Position numbers and translations under genes: made by a program. A stretch of DNA of 64,000 nucleotides from Paramacrobiotus metropolitanus (taxonomy: Eukaryota > Tardigrada > Eutardigrada > Parachela > Macrobiotidae), in contig NW_026570370.1 of assembly GCF_019649055.1 (NCBI RefSeq), positions 1 through 64,000 of the forward strand, given 5' to 3'. Under the pieces are notes generated by a model, which was not told the DNA's origin, made no database searches, and saw only the letters and a list, made by a program, of their open reading frames with translations. Below are positions 38,099 to 61,929 of this stretch, in pieces (the stretch's first letter is position 1; the number at the start of each line of letters is the position of its first letter).

Positions 38099-38559
38099 TC
38101 TGGCTATGTTAGCGGTACAACTGTAAAACGGTGCCGAAAATACCAGATATTGCCTTTACTAGTATCAGTAGTGCGCCTAATGCTGTATACAAGCTTATCG
38201 AGCGCCACCGGTTATCCGTAATCGTGCTTTATCTCTTCGTTCTAAAGTTCATGCTATTGTTCTCTTTAAATTAGCAAGTTGTTTACACGACTGGTCTCGT
38301 TCCGTTGTTTCGTAATGCTAATCGCAATTCTGCAGTCCACTCTTGGTTACTCAGCAGATTAGAAGACAAAGAAAGGTTCGGAAATACGTATATTTAAGCC
38401 AAAAGTCAAAGAAATCTAATTTAAGAAATATAGATTTAGCAAAATTTTACCTGGCGGCTCATGGAATGGATAGCTATGTGAAGTATAAATATTCGTATAC
38501 TCCGGATGCTAGAACTGGCTCAATCGGTACCAAACTTTTATCGCGCGACAGTCGCGGCA

Positions 38560-41500
38560 ACGATCGCGACGCCGCGATGGCCGCGACGCCTGTATATAGC
38601 CGCGATGCACCGCGACACTGCGTATGCCGCAGGTAGGCCTGTTTGCCGCGACGCCGCGATGGCCGCGACGCCTGTATAAAGCCGCGATGCACCGCGACAC
38701 TGCGTATGCCGCAGGTAGGCTCTGCCGCGACGCCGCGATGGCCGCGACGCCTGTATAAAGCCGCGATGCACCGCGACACTGCGTATGCCGCAGGTAGGCC
38801 TGCTGCCGCGACGCGGCGGCCGCGACGCCTGTATAAAGCCGCGATGCACCGCGACACTGCGTATGCCGCAAGCAGGCCTGTTTGCTGCGACGCCGCGATG
38901 GCCGCGACGCCTGTATAAAGCCGCGATGCACCGCGACACTGCGGATGCCGCAAGTAGTCTGCCTGCCGCGACGCCGCCGCGATGGCCGCGACGCCTGTAT
39001 AGAGCCGCGATGCACCGCGACACTGCGGTGATGCCGCAGGCCTGCGTTTGCTGGCGACGCCGCGATGGCCGCGACGCCTGTATAAAGCCGCGATGCACCG
39101 CGACACTGCGTATGCCGCAGGTAGGCCTGCCTGCCGCGACGCCGCGATGGCCGCGACGCCTGTATAAAGCCGCGATGCACCGCGACACTGCGTATGCCGC
39201 AAGCAGGCCTGCCTGCTGCGACGCCGCGATGGCCGCGACGCCTGTATAAAGCCGCGATGCACCGCGACACTGCGTATGCCGCAGGTAGGCCTGCCTGCCG
39301 CGACGCCGCGATGGCCGCGACGCCTGTATAAAGCCGCGATGCACCGCGACACTGCGTATGCCGCAAGCAGGCCTGCTTGCTGCGACGCCGCGATGGCCGC
39401 GACGCGCCTGTATAAAGCCGCGATGCACCGCGACACTGCGTATGCCGTAGGTGTAGGCCTGCCTGCCGCGCGACGCCGCGATGGCCGCGACGCCTGCATA
39501 TAGCCGCGATGCACCGCGACTGCGTATGCCGCAGGTAGGCCTGCTGCGACGCCGCGATGGCCGCGACGCCTGTATAAAGCCGCGATGCACCGCGACACTG
39601 CGTATGCCGCAGGTAGGCCTGCCTGCCGCGACGCCGCGATGGCCGCGACGCCTGTATAAAGCCGCGATGCACCGCGACACTGCGTATGCCGCAAGCAGGC
39701 TTCCGTTTGCTGCGACGCCGCGATGGCCGCGACGCCTGTATAAAGCCGCGATGCACCGCGACACTGCGGATGCCGCAAGTGGCATGCCTGCCGCGACGCC
39801 GCGATGGCCGCGACGCCTGTATAAAGCCGCGATGCACCGCGACACTGCATGCCGCAAGCAGGCCTGCTTGCTGCGACGCCGCGATGGCCGCGACGCCTGT
39901 ATAAAGCCGCGATGCACCGCGACACTGCGGATGCCGCAAGTAGGCCTGCCTGCCGCGACGCCGCGATGGCCGCGACGCCTGTATAAAGCCGCGATGCACC
40001 GCGACACTGCGGATACCGCAGGCAGGTCTGCCATGGCGCCGCGATGGCCGCGACGCCTGTATAAAGCCGCGATGCACCGCGACACTGCGTATGCCGCAGG
40101 TAGGCCTGTTTGCCGCGACGCCGCGATGGCCGCGACGCCTGTATAAAGCCGCGATGCACCGCGACACTGCGTATGCCGCAAGCAGGCTCACTTGCTGCGA
40201 CGCCGCGATGGCCGCGACGCCTGTATAAAGCCGCGATGCACCGCGACACTGCGGATGCCGCAAGTAGGCCTGTTTCTACGCGACGCCGCGATGGCCGCGA
40301 CGCCTGTATAAAGCCGCGATGCACCGCGACACTGCGTATACCGCAAGCAGGCCCGTTTCTGCTGCGACGCCGCGATGGCCGCGACGCCTGTATAAAGCCG
40401 CGATGCACCGCGACACTGCGGATGCCGCAAGTAGGCCTGCCTGCCGCGACGCCGCGATGGCCGCGACGCCTGTATAAAGCCGCGATGCACCGCGACACTG
40501 CGTATGCCGCAAGCAGGCCTGCCTGCTGCGACGCCGCGATGGCCGCGACGCCTGTATAAAGCCGCGATGCACCGCGACACTGCGTATGCCGCAAGCAGGC
40601 CCGTTCTGCTGCGACGCCGCGATGGCCGCGACGCCTGTATAAAGCCGCGATGCACCGCGACTGCGGATGCCGCAAGCAGGTTGCCTGCCGCGACGCCGCG
40701 ATGGCCGCGACGCCTGTATAAAGCCGCGATGCACCGCGACACTGCGTATGCCGCAAGCAGGCCTGCTCTGCCGCGACGCCGCGATGGCCGCGACGTTCGT
40801 ATAAAGCCGCGATGCACCGCGACACTGCGGATGCCGCAGTATTGGCATGCCGCGACGCCGCGACGCCGCGATGGCCGCGACGCCTGTATAAAGCCGCGAT
40901 GCACCGCGACACTGCGTATGCCGCAAGCAGGCCTGCCTGCCGCGACGCCGCGATGGCCGCGACGCCTGTATAAAGCCGCGATGCACCGCGACACTGCGTA
41001 TGCCGCAAGCAGGCCTGCCTGCCGCGACGCCGCGATGGCCGCGACGCCTGTATAGCCGCGATGCACCGCGACACTGCGGATGCGCTAGGCCTGTTCGCCG
41101 CGACGCCGCGATGGCCGCGACGCCTGTATAAAGCCGCGATGCACCGCGACACTGCGTATGCCGCAAGCAGGCCTGCCTGCTGCGACGCCGCGATGGCCGC
41201 GACGCCTGTATAAAGCCGCGATGCACCGCGACACTGCGGATGCCGCAAGTAGGCCTGCCTGCCGCGACGCCGCGATGGCCGCGACGCCTGTATAAAGCCG
41301 CGATGCACCGCGACACTGCGTATGCCGCAAGCTATGCATTCTGCCGCGACGCCGCCGCGATGGCCGCGACGCCTGTATAAAGCCGCGATGCACCGCGACA
41401 CTGCGGATGCCGCAAGTAGGCCTGTTTGCCGCGACGCCGCGATGGCCGCGACGCCTGTATAAAGCCGCGATGCACCGCGACACTGCGTATACCGCAGGCT

Positions 41501-41646
41501 GGCATGCCTGCTGCGACGCCGCGATGGCCGCGACGCCTGTATAAAGCCGCGATGCACCGCGACACTGCGGATGCCGCAAGTAGGCCTGCCTGCCGCGACG
41601 CCGCGATGGCCGCGACGCCTGTATAAAGCCGCGATGCACCGCGACA
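38560..41646. repeat. GC-rich 82-bp satellite array, roughly 37 units
   Basis: The core GCCGCGATGGCCGCGACGCC is followed by TGTATAAAGCCGCGATGCA and CCGCGACACTGCG, and recurs every ~82 bases (for example TGTATAAAGC at 39161, 39243 and 39325). The core of about 55 bp is nearly invariant. The remaining ~25-bp linker (around TATGCCGCAGGTAGGCCTGCC) varies in sequence and length, and often alternates between GTAGGCCTGCCTGCCGCG and GCAGGCCTGCCTGCTGCG types, suggesting a partly dimeric higher-order unit. Since 82 is not a multiple of 3, all frames cycle. The minus strand nevertheless has no stop through the whole array, producing a 1123-codon ORF. I call it a satellite, not a gene. Composition is very unlike the AT-rich surroundings. 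Confidence 0.9.
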
Positions 41647-41849: not shown

Positions 41850-44532
41850 TGTTGATCTGATGAAGGACAACTTCAAAGTTTCGCGTGTTTTGATGACAAT
41901 GCTGATCTATTATTTAACTTTTGCTAAGAGGAAAGTAAAAAACATTTATTAGCAGTTTCAGACTACTTGACTGAACAATATTCTGTAATCGCTGTTACAA
42001 AAAGTATAAGGAATTATCATGAAAATTCCAAAGAGCTTAAATGTTAAAGAATATTCATCATTCGCTGCATATTATATAGCTTTTCGAATAACGTAGCAAA
42101 AATTTAGCGTAAAGACTTAATAAGAAATCGCTGTGATGCCGTATTCGGATTCGTTTCGATCAGGCTGTGATGGCAAAAAGATCTGCCATTATCGTTAAGC
42201 TCGACAACATTCACTGTAAACGTTGTACGGAAAAAGAAAAATTTCAATTTGCCGGTTCCCGACGTCTCCAAAATCTCAGGTGTCTCCCTTGCAAGCAGAA
42301 CACTTGTAAGAGTTTTCCGCTTTTTTCGACAATTGGCGTTTTATTCCTTGGCACTTCAGATGATACCAAAGCTTGCAATCCGTGCACCCCACTCCTGGAT
42401 CGTCCAAATCAATATCACACGCGCACACGGAGCACTAAATAAAACAACTGTTTTATGGCCTTTCAGATGCAAATTGCTTCCTCGTGAGTCCGACAAATTT
42501 CATGCTCTTGATGAATGCTGTTTGCAGCATCCTGCTGCGATTCAAATAAACTAATGTTTTCGAACTGCGATTAAAATTCCTCTAACACATCATTGTTATA
42601 CGGTGTGCGCATTTCTCAGCAAGCAATATCTACGTGCTAATAGGGTTGCACTGTTAATAGGTGGCAGAACGTGAAGTCATCAACCATATCTGCGAGAGAT
42701 GCAGAATGGCGGAAAGACTATGATCCGATACTTACGATTATTTAATAACTGTTAATACTCAACACAGTTGTTATGCAGTCTCGAGAGAAGCATGACAAGA
42801 ATGTTTATTGCGTAAAGAACGCACCGCATTTGATAGAAAATAGCGGAAGAATGCAGCTGAAAACCGTCCAATGGTTTCGAAAATTTTCCGTGCGATTATG
42901 ATTCTTGTCACATGAGTTTATGAAAGTCTACTAAATAAAAAACCTTCAGCAAAGACTGTACCGAGTCATTAACCGTTAAGATACAACTATAAATAAATGT
43001 GTGTTAACCTAAACGGAGTGCGAACTTAAAGTCCGAGTCCCAGATCTGCACCAGTGACTAAACGAGACCGCCAACGACCTCGGGACTTTTTTTTAGAGCA
43101 AATCTGACCTCGGGATAACTCAGCGCATTTTTCTGATATAGAAACCATTTTTCAAAATTTTTCGAAAGAAAAATTTTCTCTGACTGCCGGGCATACAGCC
43201 GTTACCTTAATAGCAATGGCGCCTTAACAAAAAAACTTTAACTTTGCCTTTAAAACACTTTTTCTAGGTAAATCGATATCGCTGATTATGAATATGTTGT
43301 TAGAAACCTTGTATTAGTTATCTTAAGGAAGAATCTTACGTTTAAAATTTTTCGACAAAACTTTTCAAAATTTTTATTTTCTTCAAAAAACTTGTTTGAC
43401 TCAAACAATTTTTAATCACATTCGAACAGCGATATCATTTGAAAACGTGCTAAAGCAAAATAAAGCTTTGTTAGTAGAAAATACTGCAAGGCCTAACGGC
43501 AATCCGGATCAGAATCTTTCTTCAAAAAAGTTTTGAAAACTACCAGAAAACCGCTGAAAATCATCCGAGTCAACCGTTCAAAAAAAATCCCGATAACGTT
43601 GGGGTCGAATCCCAGGTCTGCACACCTCTTCCCTACCGGCGCTTTGCAATAGCCCAATCGCGATGAGTTGAATTAACACATCCAGTGGTCTACGGTTATC
43701 CTTACAAAAACTTTGCGGCGCAATACAAATTCAAGGGGGCAAGAAAATTTTGCTCTAATGCTCTAATCATAATGCGCGCCACTTTCACGAGCAGCATTCA
43801 CAAAATTCTTCAATTTTTCACATATTCACTTGTACCTTGGTCGCAGAGATGATTACTAGTCATAATAAAAACTTTCCTAGTTGCAACGCAAAAACATCAC
43901 CAATGTTCTTGCGTTACAACTTGCCTAAACAAACAAAAAAAAACAACAGGAACAGTTCGGTAAGCGGAAGTAAAAAAACTTTTTCTCCTCCGTTAAACAA
44001 AACGCTAAATGGCGCAAACTTCCATGAATGATCTTTAGTGTATATGTTTGAAATAGGCACTGAATCGCTCGTAAGTAGTACTTCAGTATCACTTCAGTTT
44101 CTACACTTCTGAACTGAAAGCTTTAAGCACACGTCTTTAGACACAAATATCTTCGTGAAGATAAGTCACTACTTGAAAGACGACCTGTTTTTCGGTGAGT
44201 TTTACTGTACATATACGTGATTCATGCAGCGTGCTGGTAGTACCGGGCCTACCGGCAACCACTATCAACTGGCGAGCAAAATATTAACAAATAAATACGT
44301 TAGATCAGCACAACATAACTCAAATCGTAGTATGTATTACGACGGTGATATTGAAATCGCTTGCTTGTTTCAAATATTTGGTTAGAAAGAATTCTGGCTT
44401 TCGTCTACTTTCGAATTCTGGCTTTCGCCCTAGATATACGTTTTTAAATATAGGGAAGACGTACCGAAATTTCATGTCCCGTTGATGTAATTTCGATTTT
44501 TGGCTTCTTCCCTCGCGTTAAAGCTAGCACAC
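41850..44532. other. Gene-poor region with a foldback repeat
   Basis: ORFs at 42167-42554 and 43837-44031 lack motifs or splice support. A foldback of about 540 bp lies at 43067-43604: CCAACGACCTCGGGACTTTT at the left is mirrored by AAAATCCCGATAACGTTGG at the right. Both outer flanks carry a GTC(C)GA(G/A)TCCCAG(A/G)TCTGCAC motif, similar to a tRNA B box. Confidence 0.4.
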
Positions 44533-45905
44533 CTAACAAATTGTAAATTTAGAAAAACACGTCATATAAAAAGAGAACATGTTCGTCATGCATTTCCAAT
44601 TTTTGCATAACGCCTTGAAGAGCAATGAGACCTTTGAAAGCACCGGTTGGTAACTATTACGAAAATAAAATTTACTAAATAGCGTAAAAAGGTCACCTTT
44701 TGATCCTTCCGTCCGCTTTCGCTTCGCCCGTTTTTTGGTAGTAGCGTTTAGCCCACCAGCATCCACCAGTCCTAACAAGTAACCGTAAGAAAGGTCACAA
44801 GAGTAAAGTGCTGTAAGTTCTGTAGCCGTATTAAAAATACGGAAATACATTAGCGGATGATCCAATATCAAGAGAGAACAAATTTTCACTACTTGCCTCG
44901 AGAAGCCGTAGTGCGTGGCGGCGACGGCAGCTGGTCTGTTATTGCAACCGGATAGGAAACGTGAGAAACTGGCGAGTGCACACTGCTGCTTGCTGTATTC
45001 ACTGTATCTTTTTCTGCCGCGCTGCTATCGCGTTCTACAAAAATGGTTCTTCGGTCATAATCGATGGATGTCGAATATACTGTAAACACCACTACACCAG
45101 CAACGTAAAAAAGAACTTGCCGTCGTCAACCCGGAACGTCGTACAACCAGAATTTCCTGCTGCCGTATCATCAGGACGGTCTGCCGGTGTAACTTTCAAT
45201 GGCGTCTGAGTGGTAGTTTGTGGGCTTTCAGAAGTCATTTTGTTGATTTCATCCACTGTGACGGACAACTGGAGTTCGGAGTTGGATGCCAGCGTTTTCT
45301 TTGCTTCTTCTGGCACAGACGAAGTGCTTCCTTCTGTAATTCCTGCACGACCGAAAACCATGTGCTTTAGGCAGTTTAGTGCAAAGCATTACTGCAGAGC
45401 TTTTAAACTGGAGCCCAGCACAGACAGAATAATTTTCGCACAGCAGATTATATTTACGCTGCACATGATAGTTAGCCAAAATGGAATGGTCATTTGTAAC
45501 GGTTACCGATTTTTCTCAGCATTGATTTGACATTTTCGGAAATAATCTCCACAGGAACCGCGGATGCCTTAAGTGAACGTCCGCCAAGCCTTACGTCTCG
45601 CGAAGTGTCAGCGTGTCGAACCAGGCGTAATGTCCGTACGTATGGTTGTAAAAAGGCTACATCTTTGCCTTGGGCCTTCAGATAACTTTCAATCCCATCT
45701 TGTTTAAATGCCAAAGAAAGTCCACCGCTTGATCTCCCTGGGATAAACTTAACATTGTTCCGCACCTAAACAAGAGATATTTCCTTAATTTTGGTTCATG
45801 GTTTGATTTGACTTTCCTTAAGCGAAGGTTCAAGTTTGTTTCCTTAAACAACATGACAGATGAAAAAAAATGACAATGGCTTACTAGACGTTTCACTTTG
45901 CACAA
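44533..45905 (-). CDS. Hypothetical multi-exon gene, exon joins unresolved
   Basis: A good internal exon lies after an acceptor (cttgtttag) at about 45773-45507, reading VRNNVKFIPGRSSGGLSLAF, then DVAFLQPYVRTLRLVRHAD and SLKASAVPVEIISENVKSM. Downstream minus-strand ORFs look coding: 45361-45092 is acidic and Ser/Thr-rich (ITEGSTSSVPEEAKKTLAS), 45092-44889 has FTVYSTSIDYDRRTIFVER, and 44889-44533 has a basic patch (TTKKRAKRKRTEGSKGDLF) that could be a nuclear localisation signal. Donors and acceptors between them do not give one unambiguous frame. The gene lies tandem to, and 3' of, the ATPase gene. The function is unknown. Confidence 0.35.
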
Positions 45906-46960: not shown

Positions 46961-49900
46961 TTATAGGAGATTAAATTTTGCGATACGCAGGACATTTATT
47001 AAACGCACCGTTTCTTCGTCACAGGCTTTGAGAGCTTCTTCAATAACTTCGTTTATGGTAGCTGGTGCAGAAGAAACATGTTGCTGTTTAGTATCCGGCG
47101 AAAGGGGAGTTCGAGGTTGTACATGCTTGGCTTTGGTCTCCGGCTTTGACTGCCATTTAGCAGCTTCCTTACAGGCGATACGTAGGTGAAAAGCCCGGAA
47201 CTCTGCCAAATCAACACAGCCAGTGGGGTCCACCACTTCCAAAACCTAAACAGTGTTCTAACAATACATTGCTATAGTAGTCATGTGAATTACCTACCGG
47301 CAGTTGCGTAACCTTTTACCATAACAAAGCAAAATATACTACGGGTTCAGAAGTGTACAAAAAACCGAGCCTAAATGCTTTGTGCATGCACGAAGCCAAA
47401 GCCCGACCCTGATAGCATTTATTTGCCTATGGCACCTGAATGCCTACGGCATCGCCATGCGCGACCATACGCTTAATCTCCCTTGTCTTTTAATCACCAC
47501 TTTGTGTATATTCCCAATCTCGGGCAATTTCGGGCATGAATTTTCGATCTACAAATTAATTAGGTAGTGAGTTATTTTAGTTCATCTATCGTGCTTTATT
47601 ACAACCGTAACTGGCTTTTAATTAAATTTATTAGTTTTTAAACTTAACAGGTGCTTAAGTCTAAACGCGTTTGTTGCGCTTATGAAATTGCTAAAGATTT
47701 GCGGGAGGTGGTGGCCCAAAACTACCCGTTCATTCTAAAAATCGGGAAGAAAATCGGTGGCTTACTGTAAGCTCGCCGGATAAAAAAAACAATGGCAGCT
47801 GACTATCTGTGCAGAATTCGCAAAAACCAATAAACGCCCTGCCTGCGATCAGACAGTCAAAGCTGTTGCTGTTGCTGGTTGACTATATCACAAGCATTCG
47901 TGTCAAACCAGAGGTAACCGACCGGGGTTGCAGAACAGCAGTACGAGTGCTGGACTCAACAAACTACGCGTAAATATCCAAACGTTCTCATTGATACTAT
48001 GATCTTGCCTACAGGAAAGGTCATAAACAGCAGAAGTTTATGATTTTCGCTGTCATCGGTGAGATATTACGTATATTTATGTAAATCACAAGGTTCCTAA
48101 AAATGGCCAATGTCTGTACAGAAATAACCCGCACTCCTTTAACTGAGTGTGGGTGCCTGAGATTAACGGTGAAACTTAAGGTTTCCAAATAATTATTGCA
48201 GACGACTGAACGTGCGCATATCTACCACAGATACCCCTGATGGGGAGCTTATTTAATGAGCGCCCCCCTAAGAATTCCGTAATGGTTGCAGACCTTCAAT
48301 GTAGGACTAAATGGTCGCATAGCCCCATACCCAGCATTCTGTACGCAAGCGGTGCAGTGCACTTCTACGAAACGGATGTTTTGAACTCAGTCGTACAGCG
48401 CAGTGCGCTGCATGCGTACTGAATGTGGAGATGTTTGGTACGCGACCGTTTCGTCCTTAGCTGTATTTGCTTGACCACGGTGTGTTACCACTGAAAATTT
48501 TCGTGTTCGGTCTCTTTCTGAATGTTTAGCCACCATCACTCGCAGTACTACAAACCCCACGTTAATTGTTTGTGCTCTATTTGGTTTCAGAAGCCACAGC
48601 TTGCGCTCTCGCTGAACTGAAAACTGGATTATTTCGGTTTTAAAAATTGCAAAATTTATGGTCTTACTTTACATCCATAGGCATAAATGAGTGCAATGTT
48701 GAACGCAATTCGCTGCCTCGACTGTTCCAGGCCATAATCCTTCAGCTTTTCTGTCACCTCACTATAGATCGACTTGTGATGCTGAGCGACGGCAGCAATC
48801 TCGGCTTTACCACACTGGAACAATTTGACTGCATGTTGAGAAACGAAATTGAAAAGCCCTTTATCACGAACACGGGAACCGGCATCTCGTTCGGGGATTT
48901 CGTCAGTGAACGGGATCACCACACAGCGAGACATTCCCCTTATGCTATAAGATACAGTTCAGTTTGACGGAAGTTTGAATTGTAAATTATTATTGTCCCA
49001 TACTTACTTATCAAAATTACGAAAGTCACTGAGCGCATCAGCATTTAGAGTTACTATGGCTGATGTCCGTGGAAACCGTCGTTCTTTGTAGTTCGCTAAA
49101 GCTTTCTTCTCGTACGTATCTTCCACGGCCATTTTCACAATTTCTGGGCTGGCAGGGTCATGGATAACTACGGGAAAAGCCTGGCTGGTGATCGATTCTC
49201 TCAGTCCCGCCAGCGTTGTCGTCTTCAAATCGTAAAGTTTTGAAGCTCCCGTTCCAAACATTTCTAAAACTGTGCTGCCGGTGAAAGATTTCCCACAGTT
49301 GGTTTCCCCATACAAAAGTGGTGTCGGCATTCTCAGGAAGTTTTCAACAGTTGTATCGTAATGGAACCCGGCGTAGGCAGCCCCTAAAGCAGCCAAAAAA
49401 AAATAAAATTATTTTTCAAACTTCATAACCAAAGTTAATAGGTTACCAGGTGCACAATACTTGTGTTAGATGTATATATAACTATGCAAAGATCACCGCG
49501 GAGGACAGTTCATGAAAAGAGACGTGCGAACCGTCCCACGTCCAACATTCTCGGTCATGTATGTCCAGTTGTTTTATTCAAGTACTAACTTTTGATGAGC
49601 AAAAAAGTCTTAAAAAAGTACATGAAACTGCGCTGACTGTGCTTGCGTGAAGAATGTACAATCTAATGCATTTATCCTACCTAAAGCAAGGCTGAATCCA
49701 AAGAGCGCATTCTTCGGCAAAAAGGACGCGATGAACCTGAAGGCGTCAAACTCCGCCGGAAGCGAATCCGGAATCGACAAATCGGGGATAGCGCCGGGAA
49801 TCCAAATATATTCAGTTTCAGAAAGCCTTACTCGGTTCCAAGAGCCGTCCGGAAGCAAGCGGAATGCAGTGTCTCCACCAAGTACGACAATATCTTGATC

Positions 49901-51001
49901 AAGCTGACGACCGTGACGAACGACCCTTTTTCGGTACACAGGTTCGCCATTTTCTTTAGCCTTCCTGAAACACATGATCTTTATCAGTGTACGAGTACAT
50001 CCTCACAGAAGTCGATTTATCTTTTGGCCGGTAGCGATTTTGGTTGGAAACGTTTTCACCAATACAGCTGGGTGTATTGAGCAGTGAAGAAACTTCTTGC
50101 TTTTAATTCGTATTTCTGTTGAATGTTCCTCTCATAGAATCACGCTAAAACTTTTATGCCATTTCGAGCATAAAGGTTTTGGTTGTAGGATTTGTATGCA
50201 AGCATTTGAAGTTTCGGCTGATTTATGACGTTGTACGAGTAATACGATTGTTGTTTGCGTTCTCAGTAGCAGAAGTTTTTCATCAAACCTTAAATATTGC
50301 TTTACACCGATATTTACTAATAAGCTGAAGGCTGGCAAAAATTTACCAGAAATACGTTTATGGCACTTTACGAAAATAGCTCATGTACATTACTGCCGTA
50401 TAACTTCGCTAAGATTGCGTAATGTACAAGTACGAGGCCGCTTATCTCACCTGACAAAGTCTAAGGTCAGGGATTCTCCATAGTCCTGCAAGTCGGCCTG
50501 GCTGAGTTTGCAAAAGATAGCGGGCAAACCTTTGCAGCTTTTCTTTAGGGCATTGCGAAAGTTTTCAGCTGAGTGCCACGCCGTGCTCGGTAAGAAGCCA
50601 TCGCTAAAACAACCGCAGAATAGTCGGAGCCCTCAAAAATTTCAGTCACGTAACACCCTCAGTAAAAATGTTAAAATTCAGTTGCCTAAAATATGACAAG
50701 CATACAACTTACAATTTTCCAAAATCTTCGCAATCGACTTCGATAACGTAACCGCCGTCAGCATCGGAGTCATCTCCAAGGACTATTGCCTTAATAGCGA
50801 CAGCACAGCTTAAAACCTTTCGCTTGCCCGGGTCACCAGTTCGAGGAACAGCGACCTTAAACGTTTTTCCGTTTTCCACATTAAAGGAATAGTCGCAGTT
50901 CTTCTAGAGTAAAGATGCCAGAGCAACCATCAACAATCAATCAAATAACAAATAAACAATTAGCATGCGAACAAAGAATCAGTAATTACCGAAGAATCCA
51001 T
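46961..51001 (-). CDS. SF3-helicase/DUF927-like P-loop ATPase (seven exons)
   Basis: Minus-strand exons 51001-50990, 50903-50713, 50603-50451, 49964-49681, 49383-49008, 48944-48668 and 47245-46961 all join in frame into about 525 residues, starting MDSSKNCDYSFNVENGKTF. The N-terminal half (GYVIEVDCEDFG, DIVVLGGDTAFRLLPDGSW, AIPDLSIPDSLPAEF) resembles the module before the ATPase in DUF927-type proteins. Exon 5 carries the Walker A motif GETNCGKS (residues about 239-246), a Walker B-like VVIHDP (Asp ~289) and an SF3 motif-C-like IVTLN (Asn ~327). Exon 6 starts RGMSRCVVIPF, a plausible arginine-finger region. The tail is charged and Gln/Thr-rich. SF3/DUF927 ATPases are typically replication helicases of mobile elements (family knowledge). 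Its start lies 663 bp from the divergent KDZ-like gene. A MITE occupies intron 6. No frameshift is needed, so it may be functional. Confidence 0.65.
48296..48465. mobile_element. Palindromic MITE (TTACA family), copy 3
   Basis: The ends TAGGACTAAATGGTCGCAT and CGCGACCGTTTCGTCCTTAG match the 9.75- and 17.83-kb copies, and the interior (CATTCTGTACGCAAGCGGTG) is nearly the same. It lies in intron 6 of the ATPase gene. Its flanks differ from the other copies, so it marks a separate insertion. Confidence 0.65.
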
Positions 51002-51664
51002 TTCAGATTATGCTCAAAGCCTGCTAACAGCTTTAGACAAGAAAACTTTTAAGGACTGCGCATATTTTTTCATCAATCCATATGTACTCCATACTAAGAA
51101 TTTGTAACTGTTTGGAAACACGTTTCAAGTTATGCACAAACTCATTTTTTTCAAAGCAGAACCCAAAAGCGCACGTGAGAAAATTAGGTCAGCCTTCTTG
51201 TTTACGCCCGAGTAAGCTGAGCCATTGGTTGGCATGGGTGCAACCCTTTTCCCTGCAGGGCACTGCACAGACCGCATTGGATATTCGGCAAAGTGGGTGG
51301 ATTTTGCCGTATATTCGATTCAGTGCCGCAAATTGTGCGATTGAGTATGAGAGTTTAATCGGAATTTGTTCAAACTTTTAAAAAAGTCCACCTTCGGTGA
51401 CCGGTGTTATGCTCGCCAACAGCTTCTAACTGTTGAGATTAAAAACAGACTGCAAGCGAATATTCTCCAGAACTTTCAATACAGTTCCCTACTTAATCGA
51501 AATTTCTCCATTTTTTGTTTTGATAACTCGCATTCGATGCACTGAAGGTTACTTTTATATGCATATTATTATGGAAATATCCGTGTGAATGTGTACGCTT
51601 TTCTGGCAGAAATAACAATTTCGAAGTTTTGTTTAGCGACTTTAAAATTAATTTCCTTGACATT
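51002..51664. promoter_or_regulatory. Putative shared bidirectional promoter region
   Basis: The ATPase gene starts leftward at 51001 and the first ATG of the KDZ-like gene is at 51665 rightward. No gene is recognised between them. The shared position makes a bidirectional promoter possible, but no specific element (TATA, initiator) stands out and an upstream non-coding exon of either gene could lie here. Inference only. Confidence 0.3.
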
Positions 51665-54600
51665 ATGTCCTCCACGCCCGAATTCGATGCTGATTCTCGC
51701 GAGGCGTGTGGGTACTTGGCTACCAAGTACGGATTCCGAAATCTGGAACAGCTTAAAGTGTGCTGTGCTTTTGTGCCAAAGACAATGCCGTTTGCGCGTC
51801 GGATGCAGGTATTCATGACTAATTTCTTCTTTTTTTAAAAATTATGCGTATTACCGCTATACGAATTTCGACGTAATACCACTATTCAAATATTTGAAAA
51901 AATCAGATTTTTAACCTTACGTTCCTTTTTGATTTATGACACAGACAATTGCCGAAATGATGGGCCTCTCGATTTCTCAAACCCAAAGCTTCGCATGTGA
52001 ATACCGGCGATTTGCGCCGTCATTCTTTGAAGACCCACCGTATACATCATCAGTGGAAGTGCTCTGTCCTCCTGTTTTACACTGCCAAAACAAATGCTTG
52101 TGGAAAATTGGCCAACACAAAGGAATGTTACGAGTTCTGTCCTGGCATCGTAAACCGACTGAGGTATTATATAGACTGGTGCCCGAAGCATATGTGCAGA
52201 TATAATATATTGCTTTATTATCTTGGCTTCCAGGCTACCATTTTTTGCGGAGCTGGAAAAACGCAGCCGGCATTAGTGGTTACTTTGCGGTGCAGAGGAT
52301 GCAAGTCTCGCTATTCTTATAGCAGCTGGACAAACCATCGAACATCAAAGTACTACTTTTACACTACGGAACAGCCTTATCTGGATGTTTCGCAAAAGGT
52401 TTTCGTTTGTCGGAAATTCGCTTTTGAAATCGTTAACCACATGTAAGTTTACTTTATTATTGTATGTATTATTACTGTATTATTTTCTTACTGCATTAGT
52501 GAATTATCACTGTATAAATGTATTACTGTATTATTTTCTTAAACTACTTTGGTTCCTGCGGTTTCAACGGCCGAGTGATCTTAAAACCGCTTACTCGTTG
52601 CGGAGAATTCTTGTTTTTTGCAATATTAGCAAGATTCATCACTATACAACAGATAAACGGAATCTATCGTAGTTGCTTTAAATAATCTTGGGGTAGTATC
52701 AACTAGTTAAGTGACAACTAAGCGCTGTACAGCCTCACATATTCTTGCAGCCTTTTTAATCATGCTACGTACGATGGAATCGCGGAAACTATGCGGCAGA
52801 CCTATAAATGGGATTCGTGTAAGTTACTGCGAAGAATAACAACGTCTCCATGTTTTGTAGCTTATGGCTGCACTCGCATAAGCCGTATTCCTAAAACAGC
52901 GAAATTAATTACGATCATTCACGCATTTGACTTACCGCCGATTTGTCATCTCTCCTGAGAATTGTACTGTATGAAATACAAAACAATAACATCGAGCATT
53001 GCTCGATCACCGGTCGATCGATATGATATCGAGAAGCAGTAAAGTCGCCTATAACAAGGCCGACCGGACGATGTCGATCGTCATGAGACGACGGTTGAAA
53101 AAGCCAGGGAACCTAGGAAAACTAACAAACTGAAGAGATGCCGGTCGAGGGGTTTTCGTCAACGAAATTGCGGGTCACCGTTTAGGTTCACCGACATAAT
53201 TCCGTATGCACCTCTTTGTATGTGGCTTTGTGCAGCGGGTACGCGCAGGCGTAGCATATGTCTGCCGCTTAGATGTTTTAGGTAAAGGGAAGTTGCCCGG
53301 CACATGGTACCAAATTCGTTTTCATGTACGGAAAATTTCACTTCCGCGCACTCTCAAACACATTTTTGATTTGGCTTCTTAGATTCTGTAGCCGGAAGAT
53401 TTATATTAACTGCCGTGGAAACCGTTTGTGCACTCAACATCGGAAAGTTATGGATGGATGAAAATTCCAAAGAGTTTAAATTTATTCGGATGTACTAAAA
53501 GTCTGATTATGAGCTGATCACCTTCAAATTTGCCCATAAATGCACATCGCCATGAAGATCGGTTTTACACCGATCCAGAATTCCATAATGTTTATCAAAT
53601 TTTAAAATCAAATTTAAAATTTTTTTTTAATTTGAAAAATATGTTAGAACAACGGGTCGGTGTAAAAACGTTCTTCGTGGTTATGTGCATTTACGTGCAA
53701 AATCTAAAATAAATCGGTCCATAATCAGACCTTTGGTACACCTAAGTGCACTTGAACTTTTTGGAATTCCGAACCCCCAAACCGGATGTTGGGCGCACAA
53801 AAGGCTTTCAAGCCAGTGTACAGAAATCATTTTTCTACAGAATGTCATAAAACAAGAGAAAAAAGTGTCTGAGAGTGCGCGAAAGTAAAAATTCTCGTAC
53901 ATGTAAGCGAATTTGGTGCCATGTACCAGGCCATTTACCTTAAGAAAAACCAATCAGTTGGCCTCAGTGTCTGCTTACTAAACTGTGATAGCTTTTCTTC
54001 AGCGAGCTAGCCTGCATTGTGCATACCGCACCGTTTGTAAGTTGAAAATGACCTAGTAGTCCCCCGGTGTACGATTACACAGCTAAAGATTTGTTTATCT
54101 TAGATCATTTTATTTTGTGGCATTTATTCCAGCTTTGCTGTAAAAGGTTGCCAAGCAGAGATAAACGCGGATATTTTAATCATTTTAGTATTCTCCCGGA
54201 AAACAGTGGCAGCCACTTTCATGCGGCACGAAATCGAGTGTGACATTCGGGAACAGGATACTGAGCCATTCATGTTCGATGAGAATAAGAGTATTCTGCA
54301 ATATTTGGATAAGAGAATGGACGCCATATTTTCCACCGTGTTCCGACATGATTGCACCCCTGCATGTATTGCTCAGCAGTGTGGGAGGGTAATTATCATG
54401 GACGGAATTTGGAAAGCGGGTTTCAGACACTGCATCGCCGAAGTGCAGGTTAGTATGCAGAGGGAGCAAAAAGATGCGGTGCCAAATGTTTACTGTAATT
54501 TTTAAAATTTACTAATTGGGCTTACCGACTTTTTTTCATCTGACACTTTATCGACCGACGCATCGCCGACCACACAGCGTCCACCATCACGCAGACGGCG

Positions 54601-57600
54601 ACTAAGTAATGTAAAAAGACGTAAGAAGACTAAAAAATCAAGAGCCTAATGGACGTAACAAAAATGAGAAGATAAGGAACCCAAGAAAACTTAGAAATCC
54701 CAAGACTTTGAGACGCGTTAGAAAAACGGCATCTCGACTTCGTGGCGGGTCGACATCATGCCTGTTTGACGAAAGGACGGTCGACAAATTGGAGGGCGCC
54801 GGCTAACAACCCCATTTACGCAAATAATTTGTTTATAGTAAGGTGCAAACAGACCTTCTTTGAACCCGTTTTAGAACATTGTGGAAAGCATTCCATTGCT
54901 GAACTTTCCGAACGTATGTACAAACGGACCAGATGGCCGTTGTCTACACTGCAAAACACATAAGCACCTGGAAGCCGCCATTAGAGGGCCACGCGAACAT
55001 ATGACTATTCATATGGCAGGTAAGTTTTAGTACAGTATCCAATTTCGTGTTTCGTGATCAGTCGACGAATGTGTTTCAGGGCTTTCGGACATGCTCAGTT
55101 CTAAAGCAGTGTCCGACATTAATGCGCTGCTAAGCGGGGAGATGAACAGCGCCACCCAGGAGACTTCTTGCCGAAAATTTGATCCACAAGCCAGCTGCAA
55201 AAAGAACAAGGGTGAAAATCAGCGGGGACACCTATACAGCCGTGGCTACTTATTTCTAGTTGGACCAACTGGACACGTCTTCAGCTTTGCTCCAATTTAC
55301 AGGTAGCAAATACAAAGACCTGATAAACCAATAATTCATATGGATAACGAGGCATGGTAGACATCAAATCGCTATAAAAGTGGCCCAGAAAATCACATAT
55401 GTGATTCTGCGGTGAGTGCTACTACCAGCAGTATTATCGGCTGCCTATAATAATTCAGCAATCTGAGAAAACACTGCAGATACCCAAATATGTCAGCCAT
55501 ATCGCGCAATCGTTGTACCTTTCTTCAGTGTAGCAAGACTGCAAGAGTACTGAGGCCAAGTGCCAATCATTTCAAGGCGGCATAAGTAGTGTAACATGGC
55601 GGAGCCGAAACAAAGTTGTCGTAAAGCTACGTAAATTACATTATTTGTTGTTTTCTTGGACCGGTAAGATTTTTCCAATTCAGTAAAAGAAATTGGATCA
55701 GTTGCATGACACCGCGAGCACCCGGAATCCCACTTGTTTCCAATGGACCTTTCTAAAAATAGTTATTGCCATTATCAAAAAGGACGCAAGAGGTGCGTTA
55801 GAATTTGCAGGCTGTTATACGTGACAGCATTACGTTTACCGTCTACCATAACGTCCTACCTGCCATGGCAGCCACCGTATCCCGGTTGTAGATGGTAAAT
55901 GACAAAAATCTCAATAAAAATTTCCGCACAAAAATGGCATGAGCGCAGCGTAAAAATGTAGCCGATTCTGCTGCACCTGAGAGTGATGATTCTTGTGTCT
56001 GAAGAAAAGATAGGTTTGTGTGATCTTAATCATCTAGAGCAGTTATTTCCAGCACGAAGGTGCTTGAAGGAGAGAGCATGCGATTACCGCATAGGTGTAC
56101 ATAACCATGGCGGTACTAAAGAGAAGGCGTTACGCTCGCCGTTGGCGACGTCACAGTAAGGGAAGCAGCCCGCTAGCGCAGCGCTTTAAGGCCCGTAGGA
56201 CATAAGACTGTTATGGTGAACGCATTTCACTTTCCATGCTGTGGAATCACCGAGTTTTAGCTCAAAAGAAAGAGAAACAAAATTTCAAGTTTTGTTATGC
56301 AAACGTCTTTATTAATAAAAGATAAGTGAGATTTTTTAGAACATCTCGAAAGTAAGCCGAGTTACCGTTCAAAGTCGATGCAACGGTCGGTCCAGACCGC
56401 GCGAACGTTATGTGCTAATTGCACACAATTTGAAACTTTTTTACAACATGTAATCGACTTGAATTGCACACAAATTATACATGGAAATTTTTAAAAATTT
56501 TTTCTCTTTCTTTTAAGCTATAGCCTTCTCATTCTAAATTTTTAAATTTTAAAATCGCTTAACATGGCAACCAATGGAGCCTTCGAGCCATAAAGCATTG
56601 TGCAGATGGCTGGCTTGCCTTCTCATGACCTAGCACCGGAAGTAGCCGTGTTGCGCTAATGCCTTTTATTTAGTACTGGCATGACATAACACAGCTTTGT
56701 TCCATGCAAATGTACAGTAATGATTAAGTAACTGCTACCCCGCTAAATAAACAAAACACCATTTCGCGAGGGGAGCTTTTTTAAATAAGGGTTAATGTGA
56801 TTTATCTAAGTTCGAATAAACTCCCTTTCAGCCTATATATATTTTCAAGTTTTCACTATGGTAGCATGGAATCATGCAGAAATATCTACAGTACAACCTC
56901 TCGTTACATATACTTTTTTATTAAATACACTTCTCTATAACATTCAACCTGTAAGGAATCGAATTGGCTCGCAAGTTATACTTAGGGGAGATTCTTTTTA
57001 TAACATTCACCTCTTTATAAGTCTTACCTACACTTGCCGCGGAACCGAATGTGGGTTAACCAGTGTAGAGAACCTTTGAACAACATTCAGCTCCGGTTAA
57101 ATACAGTTGCACAGAAGTAGTCAGATGCAATCTGATGTTATCCTAACATCCTGACTTAATATGGAGCAACCAACATTAACTTTGTTTGTGTAAATGGTAA
57201 TTACTATATCCAGAAGTATATCTCTAACAGAATATCCTTACTTTACCAGTCTTCAGGCACTAATCATGCGTACTAAGTCATAATGATGAACTCCAAACGA
57301 AATTTATATTTTTTAATGAACATTTATGTAATTCAAATCTGTAATGTACTTCAGATTCTAGCTACTGCCTTAATGCTACATTTTCAAAATACATGTACTG
57401 CGATGCCCCCCTACCCCAAATTATAGCAGCGCCCCTTGGGGGCGTTTCCCTTTATGAAATACACCCCGGTATAACATACGAAAGGATGGAACCGTGCCTG
57501 TATTTTATAAAGAGATTTTACTGTAAACAGATAATTTCTGATTGGAAGCTTGTGTTTCGGAGGGACGTACGTCCGTTTTTCATTATTTTGATAATTTGTT

Positions 57601-59040
57601 CCATTAGGGCAGAAAGCCTTGGACAAGTCTTCCTGTTTTTGATCAGTGGATTATATCAGTTACTGCAAGATGTGCCACCTGACGACTGGGAGAATATACG
57701 AGGGTTACTCGGAAAGTAATGATAACTATCGCACGATTTTTTATTGCATCAGCGCTTTCCTCGTATTTTCTCAAAACAATGTCCCTTAATCTCTATACAA
57801 CGCAAACAGCTAAACAGCCACTCATCAAACGTTTTCGAAAAGAAATTAGGCGGTATCTTAGAGATCGGTGTACTGATATTTTCTTCCAGTTATTCATAAT
57901 TTCAAACTTTTGCCCCGCAACAATTTTTTTCAAGCCAGGAAATATTTGGAACAGATAAAGGACTAAGGTAAACTAAGAAAAATAATGGAACGATAATTTT
58001 ACTCCAGGCCGAGAAAAAAATAAATCAGGGACGGGGTGCTTATCTGTGGATTTTCGCGATATTGCACCACACGGATGATACCGTGCCAGAAACCATTTTC
58101 TTCTGCGTTATCAGTAAGCAGCTGCAGCACACTCGACACCTTTCCTTCCATAATGATTAGACCTCTGCTATTGCTTCGGGGTCGGAAAAGGATCCTTCTC
58201 GATCAGGGTTTTGACTATGATTACTTTTCGAAAGTGGAAACTCAAAAAAATATTCCAAAATTTGAGCACCGTTGTCAAAACGGAGTGCTCGGTGGGAGTT
58301 CGCTGGAACCAACTGGCAACATCAGCAAAGAATGGTCCTTATTAAGGCGACAGAACAGGCAATACAGCATGAAAAATTCTACACTTCTCTCTGCAAATCA
58401 ATTTTTCAAAATAATATCATGAAAACTGGCCAGTAATTAAGGCAACGCTTTCAGTGATCAGTGAAAAATCAGCGCTACCCAGCCATGTTCAGAGCCTTGC
58501 TAGCCGCCAACCTTAGGCGGTATGGCCACGGCCATTGCCCTATGATCTAGTTATGAATGCTACAGTTTTTAAAAAATCAGTGCATAATTTTATGATTATT
58601 AACTGATACTGATTATCATTACTTTCCGAGTAACCCTCGTATTTGTTTGTTACGACAATATCTGCCAGCTAAACCGGCTGAAGGCGGCTTGTGAACGACT
58701 GCCGTTGCCGAAACCATTTGATGAGATGTGGTTGCGGGTCAGCAAAATTATCGACGGATTGCACATACAAAACCACAAAGATCCAAAATGCAGTAAGGAT
58801 TACCACCCAGATAAATACTACTCAACCTATCCAGAGGCGGAAAAGCGGAACACGATGGCAGCTGAACAAACGTTTGCATGGCTGGCGAAATTCCGAAAAC
58901 AGCTGAACGCCATGAACAAGGCAAGACAAATCTTTTTTCTATATCGAATGATATTGCGGCGCAATGCCTACCTGGCAGAATGTGTAGAAGAGGAAAAGCA
59001 GCCGGTCGGGGGTACAATGCGCACGTTCACCGATAAATGA
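51665..59040 (+). CDS. KDZ-type DDE transposase-like gene, last exon interrupted by a mariner-like insertion
   Basis: Eight exons join in frame: 51665-51808, 51945-52163, 52234-52442, 52751-52818, 54207-54448, 54875-55019, 55080-55302, and 57608-57698 plus 58642-59040. The product would be about 579 residues. Exons 2-3 carry the cysteine-rich part (LHCQNKCLW, VVTLRCRGCKSRY), like the CxC clusters of KDZ transposases. Exon 5 has HDCTPACIAQQC and VIIMDGIWK; exon 6 has VCTNGPDGRCLHCKTH. Candidate catalytic residues are Asp279 (IMDGIW), Asp452 (CYDNIC) and Glu522 (AAEQTFAWL), with PDKYYSTYPEAEKRNTMAA before the Glu. KDZ elements move by cut-and-paste (family knowledge). A 941-bp mariner-type element splits exon 8 just before Asp452, so this allele cannot make the full protein. 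Introns 4 and 7 are long and repeat-filled. Confidence 0.65.
53000..53160. repeat. CGACCG-rich foldback fragment in intron 4 of the KDZ-like gene
   Basis: A block with gaCCGGTCGATCGatatGATA, GACGATGTCGATCGTCATG and an A-rich aaGCCAGGGAACCTAGGAAAA core ends with GCCGGTCGAGG. It resembles the block at about 54545-54790 (CGACCGACG... AAGAAAACTTAGAAATCCCA ...GGACGGTCGAC) and, in overall plan, the foldback at 25.9 kb. It is non-coding. Confidence 0.35.
53275..53950. mobile_element. Roughly 680-bp palindromic element in intron 4 of the KDZ-like gene
   Basis: About 100 bp at each end are inverted copies: GGTAAAGGGAAGTTGCCCGG, CACATGGTACCAAATTCG and CGCGCACTCTCAAACAC at the left pair with GAGAGTGCGCGAAAGT, CGAATTTGGTGCCATGTACC and GGCCATTTACCTT at the right. 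Inner blocks (CGGTTTTACACCG / CGGTGTAAAAACG; gtactaaaagtctgatTATGAG / ATAATCAGAcctttggtac) are also inverted. There is no transposase. Related fragments are at 1.2-1.9, 12.0-12.2 and 24.8-25.0 kb. Confidence 0.6.
55303..57607. other. Intron 7 of the KDZ-like gene; no further gene seen
   Basis: A 2.3-kb intron bounded by GTAGCA at 55303 and CCATTAG ending at 57607. ORFs inside it (55493-55678, 56858-57079) are short and lack motifs. No RNA gene was found. It may carry degraded repeats that are not resolved by eye. Confidence 0.4.
57699..58639 (-). mobile_element. Mariner-type element, degenerate, inserted at a TA in a coding exon
   Basis: Terminal inverted repeats of about 27 bp (CGAGGGTTACTCGGAAAGT and the following AATGATAA) bound a 941-bp element flanked by TA on both sides (57697-57698 and 58640-58641). 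On the minus strand near the left end a fragment reads FDEWLFSCLRCIE then GHYFEKI, like the C-terminus of mariner transposases. The rest is broken by stops and indels. It is an inactive, internally deleted copy. Removing it with one TA restores the host exon frame exactly. Confidence 0.75.
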
Positions 59041-60669
59041 AGCAATAACATATCGTTTTTAAGCGCAGGTGTTGAGCCTTCTTTATTAGCGCATGGCGAT
59101 TCCGTTTCGTATTATGTTGCCTAAGTTGTTTGCCTCCAGTAATTCGTTTTTTTCTTACTGTGTAAGGATGGAACGTGTCTACGTTATTAGTTTCGTCGGT
59201 TTGTACATAAAATCTTCTGGAACTAAAACCGTAAGAATAATTGATCGGCGTGCCGTACGAAAACGTTTGTAAGTCCTTCGGTGCTCGGAGCGCAACCATT
59301 TTCCAAAATGTAGATCTCCACTGTCCACAAGGTGTCTTAAAGGCTCACCGCAAACAACCAGCCGTGGATAGTTGCGTAACCAGCAGTTGCGTAGCAGTCA
59401 ACTTGAATATCTGCAGTGTGCTATCCAACGTTTGCAACGCTTTACTACAGAAGATCTGCACAAGTTCACGGTTGATGCCTAAGGAAAGGTTGATGGTTAT
59501 TTATTCAGAAACTTGAAGTTCAGTTCTATTCCGAGCGCTCAGTGCCAGTGATCCGGCGTGCATCATTCGCGAAACACTGACGGTTAACAAACAGGGGCAT
59601 GCGATTTTCTAAAGGACAGCATAAAGCAGATTGTCTTAGCCCTGCTAAAAACGTAATGCACTATGAACCCAGGCTTCAAAATTTTTATTAGCAGTACGAC
59701 ATTTCGTTTAGGTAAATCGCTAGATTGCACAGAGCATTCAAGGTGTCGAGGTATCCCGTGTACACATATACTTTACGTTTTGTAAGTGCGGCAGAAATGC
59801 ATACCGCTCCTAAGTTAGTTTTATGTTTTTCATTTTCAAGGCTGCTAGTTTCAATCCAATTTGATTAATGATGAGGTAAAATTGCTAATTGTTTTATCTT
59901 CATGTATATTTCGAATTCACTAATACGTTCTTAAATTATTGCGAAGGGCAGTAATTGTATCAATAGAAGACTTTTGTATTGTAATTGTATTTTAATTGTT
60001 TTACAGCAGTTTTGGCAGTAGTTATATCCAGTACGTGCGCTAATGTCACAGAATTATAATTATGAGTGTCTAAACTACTGTTCCAGTATTCGCACCGCAT
60101 GAATCGCACGTATTCGCCAGATTTGCCAAGTTCAGATTAAGGCTACACTGTGTCCAAGAAAAGACATTCTCGTACATCACTACAGTTTTGGTACGTAAAC
60201 ACATACGTCAAACTAATAAATTACAAAGTTGAGTTGGCAGTCATTAGTCAAGTTAGGAGCGCTGTAAGACGCTGTAATTTTATTTTATTTTCCATATTAT
60301 AATGCAGCACTACATACCGTTACATACAAAAACTTAACCCTTGACATACAGATTAGCTCTCAAGAAATGCACTGCACCTGATACACTTGACCTTTCACAG
60401 TGCGTACTACGAAAATAAAATGCATACGCTACATATATGGGGTTACTGTTCTCAATCTTCCAAAAATTGTTTTGCATAGCTGATGAAAATTTTGTAGGGT
60501 TATATAATAAATTTGGCGAGTCGAAAAGAGTAGCAATGGAGACATTATCATCAGAAAGCCAATCACAACTCAATCGCGTTACTGTGGATCCCGTAGCGCA
60601 CCCCCGTGTTGTCTTACTGATGTACGAGTGCTGTATTTACTGAAACATTTTCGGAATTGTTTACAATTT
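59041..60669. other. Gene-poor region downstream of the KDZ-like gene
   Basis: Short ORFs (59027-59299 minus, 59241-59516 plus, 60334-60573 minus) lack motifs and splice support. AT-rich sequence. No terminal inverted repeat matching the other side of the KDZ/ATPase pair was recognised. Confidence 0.4.
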
Positions 60670-61790
60670 TACTGCATCATTCATAGCTGGTTCGAAGAAG
60701 AACAAATACGTCGTCCCAGTAATGGTCAGACCCTTGCCGCCCAACGAAATGGACATAAGAAGAATCTTGATTCGCCCATTTCGCAAATCCTCTAAAGCAA
60801 CGGGAAGGCCTTTTTAGTCCTTGACATACAGAACCGTGTCCTCGTTGCGAATCACGATCGTCGTGTAATCATCCAGGCTTTCCGTTAATCAGAATAACCG
60901 AATAACCGAGAATTTTTCCGTAGATCAACACTGTTTAGGCTGAAAATCTTGTGCACCACTGCTTCCATTTTCTGTGGAGCACTTTTCAAACTCAACGTAT
61001 CTAAATGCAATTTTTCTGGCAAAGGTTTGCGGTGCACGCCGTCGGCCTTTACAACTTCGTGTTTTGTGTGGCGACTTTCCGAAACTGCGTTTGCTGCCTA
61101 TGATAGCTCGAAGCTTCCTTTTCTATCATTTTGTGACAAGTTCGGCAGATAACGTGAGTGCAGATACAAGGCCAATCTTTTCCCATCGCTGCACACCGCA
61201 TCATTACAGACACAGCATTCGTGCTGCTGTTCCTGGCTCTCGTTGAACATAGCCATCCTGCATATTTTGAATGTAATTGAATCGGGAGGTATCACCAGTC
61301 ACCACCGTGACGCCGGGAGTATGCTTTGGGCATCCTTTGGAATGAGCCCGTATTGCGCTGCAGATTTTTATCGGACAGAAGTAGCATAAAACGATATTTT
61401 ATGAATTTGACGCAGTTTATCACAGGAGCTAATTTAGGTTCGTAACATTTGGTACAGACTTGAGAAGCAAATCGGCTTCTCTTTCAGCAGATCCAAAACC
61501 AGCTGAAAATGCTTCCATTCCACTTTCCATTCAAAATAATCTTTATATATTTCTTTTTCTTATGGCCATTCGAAAGCTCTTCCAAAGCAGATGCTTGGAG
61601 GTCGTTTTGCAAATTTCCTTTAAACCACTGTCCGCTTAGTCCGATTCACGCCCATCGCAATCCAGACTCTTGCTGCATATCTTTTGTTTGCGTTGTCGGC
61701 CGGTCAACTCGGCACCATCGTCATCGTCGGTTAATTCCATTACAGTTCGGAAAATGAGATCTTCGTAACCGGAAAAGGCTTTTTCCAGCA
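60670..61790 (-). pseudogene. SNF2-family helicase with RING finger (HLTF/TTF2-like), decayed
   Basis: The minus strand, read 61790 to 60670, shows an acidic stretch (TVMELTDDDDGAELTGRQR). Next is a RING-like cysteine run (ECCVCNDAVCSD in one frame, THVICRTCHKMI in the next), then LHLDTLSLKSAPQKMEAV. The last part is a clear C-terminal helicase signature: LRNGRIKILLMSISLGGKGL, then TGTTYLFFFEPAMNDAVKL, equivalent to motifs V-VI of SNF2 ATPases. Stops and frame changes occur between each block (for example a TAA near 60813 and the RING frameshift near 61185). The N-terminal ATPase lobe is not seen. It is therefore a relic, or a badly assembled gene. Confidence 0.5.
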
Positions 61791-61929
61791 CACCCAGACG
61801 TTATCGTGTTTTAATCGGTAACAGCGATAACTGTATCTTCACGGTTACGATATTCGTTGCAGTGTTTAGGTTATGGTAATTTTTTTTAAAACAATAGCTG
61901 AAAGAAAACTAAAAAATAAAAGTCGTTCC

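Follow-up and report, generated by a model that had tools for sequence, protein, structure and literature searches.

A KDZ-superfamily DNA transposon family with a probable head-to-head SF3-like ATPase partner, and its broken copy at the start of a tardigrade contig

Two multi-exon genes that diverge from a gap of a few hundred base pairs raise the question whether they are ordinary host genes, chance neighbours or the parts of one mobile element. They lie in positions 1-64000 of contig NW_026570370.1 (C150) of the 169.8-Mb Paramacrobiotus metropolitanus assembly, the whole stretch analysed here and called the window, and had been described in a first-pass annotation as a KDZ-like transposase gene and an SF3/DUF927-like ATPase gene, possibly forming a composite or domesticated transposon. 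The best explanation, to which we assign a probability of roughly 0.8 on the grounds of sequence comparison, is a KDZ-superfamily DNA transposon family with a conserved ATPase partner, of which the window holds a truncated and dead copy; the other copies are labelled by contig (C92, C7, C56 and so on).

Both genes were rebuilt from their splice sites into a 581-amino-acid plus-strand protein and a 521-amino-acid minus-strand model, the latter retaining the 3' end at 46961 given by the first-pass annotation; introns in both are GT-AG and consistent in phase, with the exception of a junction created by a mariner-type insertion. The start codons at 51001 (minus strand) and 51665 (plus strand) are separated by exactly the 663 bp first reported (51002-51664), a divergent intergenic region which would act as a shared promoter. 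On the evidence of its cysteine cluster and catalytic contexts, the plus-strand gene is that of a CxC5-KDZ (Kyakuja/Dileera/Zisupton) transposase of the DDE type. Exon 1 (51665-51808) is followed by exon 2 (51945-52163), in which CxC5 begins, and exon 3 (52234-52442) with the CxC5 cysteine cluster; the spliced protein matches PF18718, the Pfam cysteine cluster associated with KDZ, at E=1.5e-9 and 38.5 bits, above the cut-off. Exon 4 (54133-54448) contributes the first catalytic Asp (MDGIWK), exons 5 (54875-55019) and 6 (55080-55302) follow, and exon 7, which is uninterrupted in relatives, is broken by the insertion into a 5' part (57608-57698) and a 3' part (58642-59040), the latter with the second Asp (YDNIC), the catalytic Glu (EQTF) and the stop codon. 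The triad reads D281/D454/E524; its contexts had been recognised correctly, each residue being numbered two too low (D279, D452, E522). The contexts DGxWK, YDNxC and EQTF are kept in the paralogues covering them (DG[IL]WK is seen in C58 and C420), the second catalytic Asp is present in four of the five aligned KDZ rows, the C420 row being without that stretch, and the Glu in all five. The KDZ profile PF18758 matches the C-terminal part of the paralogue in the sister element C58 at 4e-6 and 27.1 bits, barely above the cut-off of 26.6, and also exceeds it at C65, C129 and C515, and the CxC5 score of the C58 paralogue is 24.6 bits, under the cut-off of 26.9. A pattern search of viral contigs for KDZ returned 58 matches with no relative among them. 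One KDZ intron carries a fold-back inverted repeat (window 53274-53952; 168-bp arms, 74% complementary) which resembles a miniature inverted-repeat transposable element and is found in the C92 copy too.

The gene on the minus strand starts with a putative start exon (50990-51001, ATG GAT TCT TCG followed by gt), also present in C92 and C7 and negative in an exact search of C56, and continues in the splice model through exons 1b (50713-50903), 2 (50451-50603), 3 (49681-49964), 4 (49008-49383), 5 (48668-48944) and 6 (47009-47245). Splice model, alignment and profile-profile match mark exon 4 as the ATPase core, with the Walker A loop GETNCGKS, the B-like VVIHDP and the motif-C-like Asn in TLNAD starting at residues 235, 281 and 321 of the 521-amino-acid model, in the order originally reported. 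In a six-row alignment of the family, drawn from several element subfamilies, the first Gly and the Lys of Walker A, the HD of the B-like motif and the motif-C Asn are invariant, and motifs A, B and C follow one another within about 100 residues, the arrangement expected of SF3 helicases.

Named profiles give little guidance to this protein: the spliced window ATPase has no Pfam match, hmmscan returned no significant SF3 model, and the family showed nothing significant in NCBIfam or PHROGs. DUF927 was rejected as its identity, since PF06048 matches neither the spliced window ATPase nor anything in an exon-by-exon genome scan. Against PDB profiles the alignment gave weak matches only: the best (E=0.015) was to an ABC transporter and lay away from the Walker loop, and the remainder were mostly to AAA ATPases around Walker A. 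Single-sequence structure prediction of the core exon frame reached a predicted local distance difference test score (pLDDT) of only 37.8. The SF3 half of the first label fares better. Among 50,697 phage records, the top tblastn match of the ATPase was a protein of Methanobacterium virus Drs3 (E=0.7), which bears DUF5906 (only Drs3 was tested), presumably an SF3-type family, and matches viral DNA-primase families. When a profile of the Drs3 protein and two homologues, one annotated as primase/DNA polymerase, was compared with that of the ATPase, hhalign gave a probability of 96% and E=4.7e-9 over 100 columns spanning motifs A, B and C, an E-value flattered by the choice of the viral set after a weak tblastn match; the best of 60 column-shuffled controls was E=0.025, and an unrelated P-loop terminase, entered as a single sequence, gave 0.4%. 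These controls support a real relation between the ATPase and viral primase-type proteins, as far as profiles can tell, and the comparison as a whole supports a predicted P-loop ATPase with the motif order of SF3-type primase-helicases, in short an SF3-like ATPase.

The divergent pair recurs at other loci of the genome. Genome-wide searches yielded at least 90 exon matches to the ATPase gene and at least 89 to the KDZ gene, those in the window included, and the match lists were then widened with diverged family members as queries. The pair tally covers 37 loci with the ATPase core exon and 52 loci with KDZ among the matches listed, each entered once, by hand, with a proximity limit of 15 kb chosen by the analyst; it took only core-exon matches of the ATPase, and loci with C-terminal exon matches alone, in C44 and C1 (both near KDZ) and twice in C35 (not near KDZ), were excluded. 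A KDZ match lies within the limit at 25 of the 37 ATPase loci, compared with a random expectation of about 0.9% per locus, and 22 of the 25 are oriented head to head. Nothing was found in favour of chance neighbours, which the first-pass annotation had allowed for; with 22 head-to-head pairs among 37 listed loci such adjacency is very unlikely, to the point of being negligible. In the remaining three of the 25, the ATPase match is a decayed second copy lying past the KDZ gene (C92:18195-18569, C7:2303850-2308014 and C56:367935-368081), which suggests a history of nested or duplicated elements.

The ratio of nonsynonymous to synonymous divergence (dN/dS) was estimated from ungapped stretches with stop codons dropped, a procedure which under-represents decayed pieces and to that extent counts against us. 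Between the window/C92 and C7/C56 lineages it amounts to 0.10-0.11 for the ATPase (dS 0.68-0.74; 586 codons) and 0.09 for KDZ (dS 0.80-0.94; 525-538 codons); between the close copies in the window and C92 it is 0.13 and 0.24, respectively. By this measure, selection has constrained the ATPase and the transposase to a similar degree during their shared history, and because exon matches recur genome-wide with a dN/dS of about 0.1, both are genes far beyond chance.

The ends and TSDs of the family match those of cut-and-paste KDZ elements. Terminal inverted repeats (TIRs) had been reported as missing, which is correct for 46961-59040 and incorrect overall, as the left TIR TAGAACTGGCTCAATCGGTACCAAACTT, 28 bp in length and flanked by CCGGATGC, lies outside that interval at 38510-38537 on the plus strand and forms the outer element edge; in C92 and C7, each end carries a related TIR. 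Next to the left TIR, a tandem-repeat scan detected a subterminal array (38565-41646, about 3.1 kb) in which a GC-rich unit of 82 bp is repeated 37.6 times. In C92, C7 and C56 the array reappears inverted at the far end, and beyond it lies an inverted repeat of 28 bp with a related sequence. The TIR consensus of the window's family begins YAGAASTGGCT..., and a pattern search with at most 3 mismatches gave 55 sites, the reversed control none. Of nine TIR pairs in this family, four have exactly matching flanks in the form of 8-bp target-site duplications (TSDs), namely the 23.9-kb element in C92 (TGCAGCAC on both sides), the 29.8-kb element in C7 (CATTGTAT), the 8.8-kb element in C44 (ATAAAATT) and the 3.2-kb element in C98 (TGTTTCGA), the TIRs of C52, C59, C9 and C98 having been paired by distance and orientation only. 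The short members in C44 (656270-665025, L016) and C98 (506422-509579) are probably internally deleted and non-autonomous. At C56:365946-390595, the two TIR types have exchanged places with respect to the genes, as judged from C92 and C7, and the 8-mers on the two sides are not the same, which suggests recombination between the inverted arrays.

Elements with comparable ends extend beyond the window's own family. The diverged subfamily represented by C58 (9.6 kb) and C130 (10.0 kb), with about 50% KDZ identity, has a TIR of another kind, carries 84-bp arrays in inverted orientation and is flanked by exact TSDs of 8 bp (ACAACATG and ACTTGGCG), and a third, compact element of 6.4 kb in C53 carries inverted 49-bp arrays. 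For C53, a relaxed scan restricted to the array flanks produced one pair with CAATCTGA on both sides, which was accepted not on the scan alone but because its TIR resembles that of the window. In total, exact 8-bp TSDs occur at seven related loci in three subfamilies, that of C53 by the relaxed scan, and inverted tandem arrays occur at both ends in three subfamilies, each with its own unit (82, 84 and 49 bp). C50 and C74 showed an array on a single side and C420 none, and TIR and TSD scans of these three loci found nothing. A composite transposon that combines a KDZ recombinase with a helicase-like ATPase is thus strongly supported by recurrence, TIRs and TSDs. The domesticated alternative, a pair of host genes with a transposon origin, would be in line with the multi-exon structure and the strong purifying selection; it was rejected as a single- or low-copy, intact locus devoid of transposon ends, given that the family is multicopy, that TIRs and TSDs accompany some of its members and that the window copy is truncated and split by an insertion, and we regard it as highly improbable.

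The ATPase gene itself probably reaches 4.7 kb beyond the end first given. That end, at 46961, is probably a read-through into an intron: exon 6 closes with the donor ACG followed by gtgcgt, its last base being 47009, and phase 0 resumes at 45765, where the exon is 87-98% identical among copies. This exon 7 (45508-45765, minus strand; VRNNVKFIPG...) is placed by splice phase and by 94% identity of C56 to C7. Further along the same strand, an exon at 42279-42434 encodes a C4HC3 PHD finger, ends at a stop codon and probably represents the C-terminus of the ATPase, the link to exon 7 being inferred; PF00628 matches it at 8.2e-7 and 29.4 bits (cut-off 24), and across all six pairs of copies its 52 codons show a dN/dS of 0.11-0.28. 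The C4HC3 pattern was present on the ATPase strand in eight of the ten loci scanned (window, C92, C7, C56, C58, C130, C50 and C420), and none of the eight holds a second match. As to a separate third gene in this left part, splice phase favours the ATPase extension as far as exon 7, beyond which the PHD exon may still be a gene of its own. PHD fingers read chromatin, and the finger would give the ATPase a possible contact with it.

In the window copy, the plus-strand gene is interrupted in its YDNIC exon by an insertion of 941 bp (57699-58639) with perfect inverted ends and TA on each side, whereas the site is uninterrupted in the C92, C7 and C56 relatives. We take the insertion to be mariner-type from the TA and from the end sequence, and not from a transposase match. 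The genome contains at least 17 other near-full-length copies of it; among the matches listed, seven are 99% identical, 15 match from the first to the last base and two begin at base 3 or 5. The insertion into the catalytic exon is recent. On the right, similarity to the C92 element ends at 61818, the inverted array was not found up to contig position 82000, and no right TIR was found by the TIR pattern in the window's contig, where the only other site found, at 202369, is oriented like the left end; of the flanking inverted repeats that were looked for, the left one was therefore recovered and the right one was not. The window copy, its catalytic exon split and its right end lost, is dead or dying. 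The dS between the window and C92 copies is about 0.05, and the two therefore parted recently relative to the older lineages.

Inside the element, a decayed helicase-C fragment (60349-61818, minus strand), presumably SNF2-like, matches its profile under the cut-off and is also found in C92, C56 and C98. A relative outside the element copies examined, at C25:518128-519431, is perhaps the host gene from which the fragment was captured. Elsewhere in the window, a perfect tandem repeat comprises 2.9 copies of a 56-bp AT-rich unit (33989-34148), and two inverted segments of about 130 bp (14280-14412 and 22611-22743), which are 80% identical to two places at the C56 locus, probably belong to another repeat family.

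Several observations have to be set against the proposed transposon family and its two-gene composition. All comparisons come from one genome. In the window, the C-terminal part of the transposase scores 18.5 bits (E=0.0017) against PF18758 and the C53 copy 24.7 bits, both under the cut-off of 26.6. The Walker loop of C58 reads GLPDTWKT, without the second Gly. Flanks do not match in five of the nine TIR pairs (C56, C52, C59, C9 and C69), and in C53 a stricter scan gave no ends, and a loose one, covering the locus in part, a single match that does not span the element. Within 15 kb, 12 of the 37 ATPase loci listed are without a KDZ match and 30 of the 52 KDZ loci without an ATPase match; unless those copies are fragments, the two genes are not universally partnered. 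Recent duplication accounts for many of the loci, which are hence not independent, and the subfamilies, about five as judged by eye from identities and not from a tree, are therefore the independent units. The C4HC3 pattern was not found in C53 or in C74, the latter covered in part, the finger of C420 matches no PHD model (best C1_2, below the cut-off), and that the PHD exon belongs to the ATPase gene is something we infer.

For the transposon with its ATPase partner, a working scheme can nevertheless be proposed. The KDZ transposase would cut at the YAGAASTGGCT... TIRs and insert with 8-bp TSDs, a chemistry derived from the superfamily. The ATPase, which probably helps the element to move, might form a ring or a filament, either on the inverted arrays inside the TIRs or on target DNA, where its use of ATP could serve end synapsis, DNA opening, target choice or licensing of the transposase, and the PHD finger might contact histones or chromatin. 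Since it has been retained and selected together with the transposase, the ATPase is most likely a dedicated partner. A specific regulator role would follow by analogy with IS21, Tn7 and Mu and their dedicated ATPases, and we hold it as a tentative proposal at somewhat less than even odds. The same tentative standing applies to its fullest version, an obligate two-component machine of KDZ transposase and dedicated SF3-like ATPase-PHD protein which loads on the arrays and reads chromatin in order to license or aim integration. Such a machine would be an independent eukaryotic counterpart of the Tn7, Mu and IS21 regulators, its ATPase possibly recruited from a viral primase-helicase. If the element is real, we rank the regulator first, a replication helicase second and an accessory or anti-silencing function third, none of them reaching half of the weight.

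As a replication helicase, the ATPase would act on the arrays as iteron-like sites, a replicating intermediate would amplify the element and KDZ would only integrate and excise it, which would make the family a transposon-replicon hybrid. The closest profile match, to viral proteins that match primase families, and the likeness of the end arrays to origin iterons speak for this possibility, as does SCCmec Cch2, a Rep-type helicase which unwinds DNA in an iteron-dependent manner according to the accessible part of PMC7581432. It is made doubtful, though still a serious contender, by ends and TSDs typical of cut-and-paste KDZ elements and by the failure to detect a primase or polymerase domain in the two spliced proteins and the other element pieces scanned. 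An accessory role, in which the ATPase-PHD gene is cargo directed against silencing or acting via chromatin, as proposed for TET/JBP in fungal KDZ elements, would suit a chromatin-reading finger and the 30 of 52 KDZ loci with no ATPase match inside the 15-kb limit, and accessory genes are common in KDZ elements in the portions of PMC12730594 and PMC12477816 that were available. Equal constraint on ATPase and transposase makes incidental cargo hard to explain, however, and the ATPase is kept even in the compact C53 element and in the same divergent position in several diverged subfamilies, all of which leaves this role unlikely.

To our knowledge, the usual view of cut-and-paste transposons in eukaryotes is that a transposase suffices for them, whereas several bacterial elements choose their targets with an ATPase. 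A jointly constrained pair makes ATPase-controlled transposition in eukaryotes directly testable, the family could offer a chromatin-aware integration system, and the locus is a warning for annotation, as pairs that resemble ordinary multi-exon host genes can be transposons.

Among known systems, the KDZ transposon as such is established, and what provisionally appears new is the conserved divergent ATPase(-PHD) partner together with the array-lined ends, neither of which was found described in the available portions of the open-licence literature on KDZ elements, Repbase lying outside that search. TSDs of 8 bp, as in the elements described here, are known from Zisupton and from a Dileera-type element, and, unlike these, Kyakuja has 7-bp TSDs and no TIRs (PMC12730594, in its available part). 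According to the accessible text, Zisupton genes are multi-exon (PMC9297572), Cryptococcus KDZ1 has a TSD of 8 bp and KDZ2 and KDZ3 of 4-8 bp (PMC12810828), and giant KDZ elements of about 30 kb, for example in Ectocarpus, carry extra genes (PMC12477816). With the giant elements of Ectocarpus and the Cryptococcus KDZ1-3 elements, the present family shares a KDZ transposase with CxC cluster, TIRs, TSDs, sizes up to about 30 kb, nested insertions and extra genes; it differs in the conserved head-to-head SF3-like ATPase and the long inverted arrays at both ends, which the available portions of those accounts do not describe. The fungal KDZ elements with TET/JBP likewise join the transposase to a further gene whose product acts on chromatin or DNA (PMC12730594, as far as its open text goes), but that product is a dioxygenase, and its place is taken here by a P-loop ATPase that probably carries a PHD finger. 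The archaeal virus proteins of DUF5906/primase type (Drs3, vir080, HAV2) share Walker A, the B-like motif and the motif-C-like Asn over 100 columns; the resemblance is remote, and the tardigrade protein differs by having no single-sequence Pfam match and a PHD finger on the ATPase strand. IS21 (IstA/IstB), Tn7 and Mu, finally, pair a transposase with a dedicated ATPase regulator (PMC11208146, in the part available), a likeness which would be an analogy of function and not of sequence membership; the ATPase described here resembles viral primase-helicases and its host is a eukaryote.

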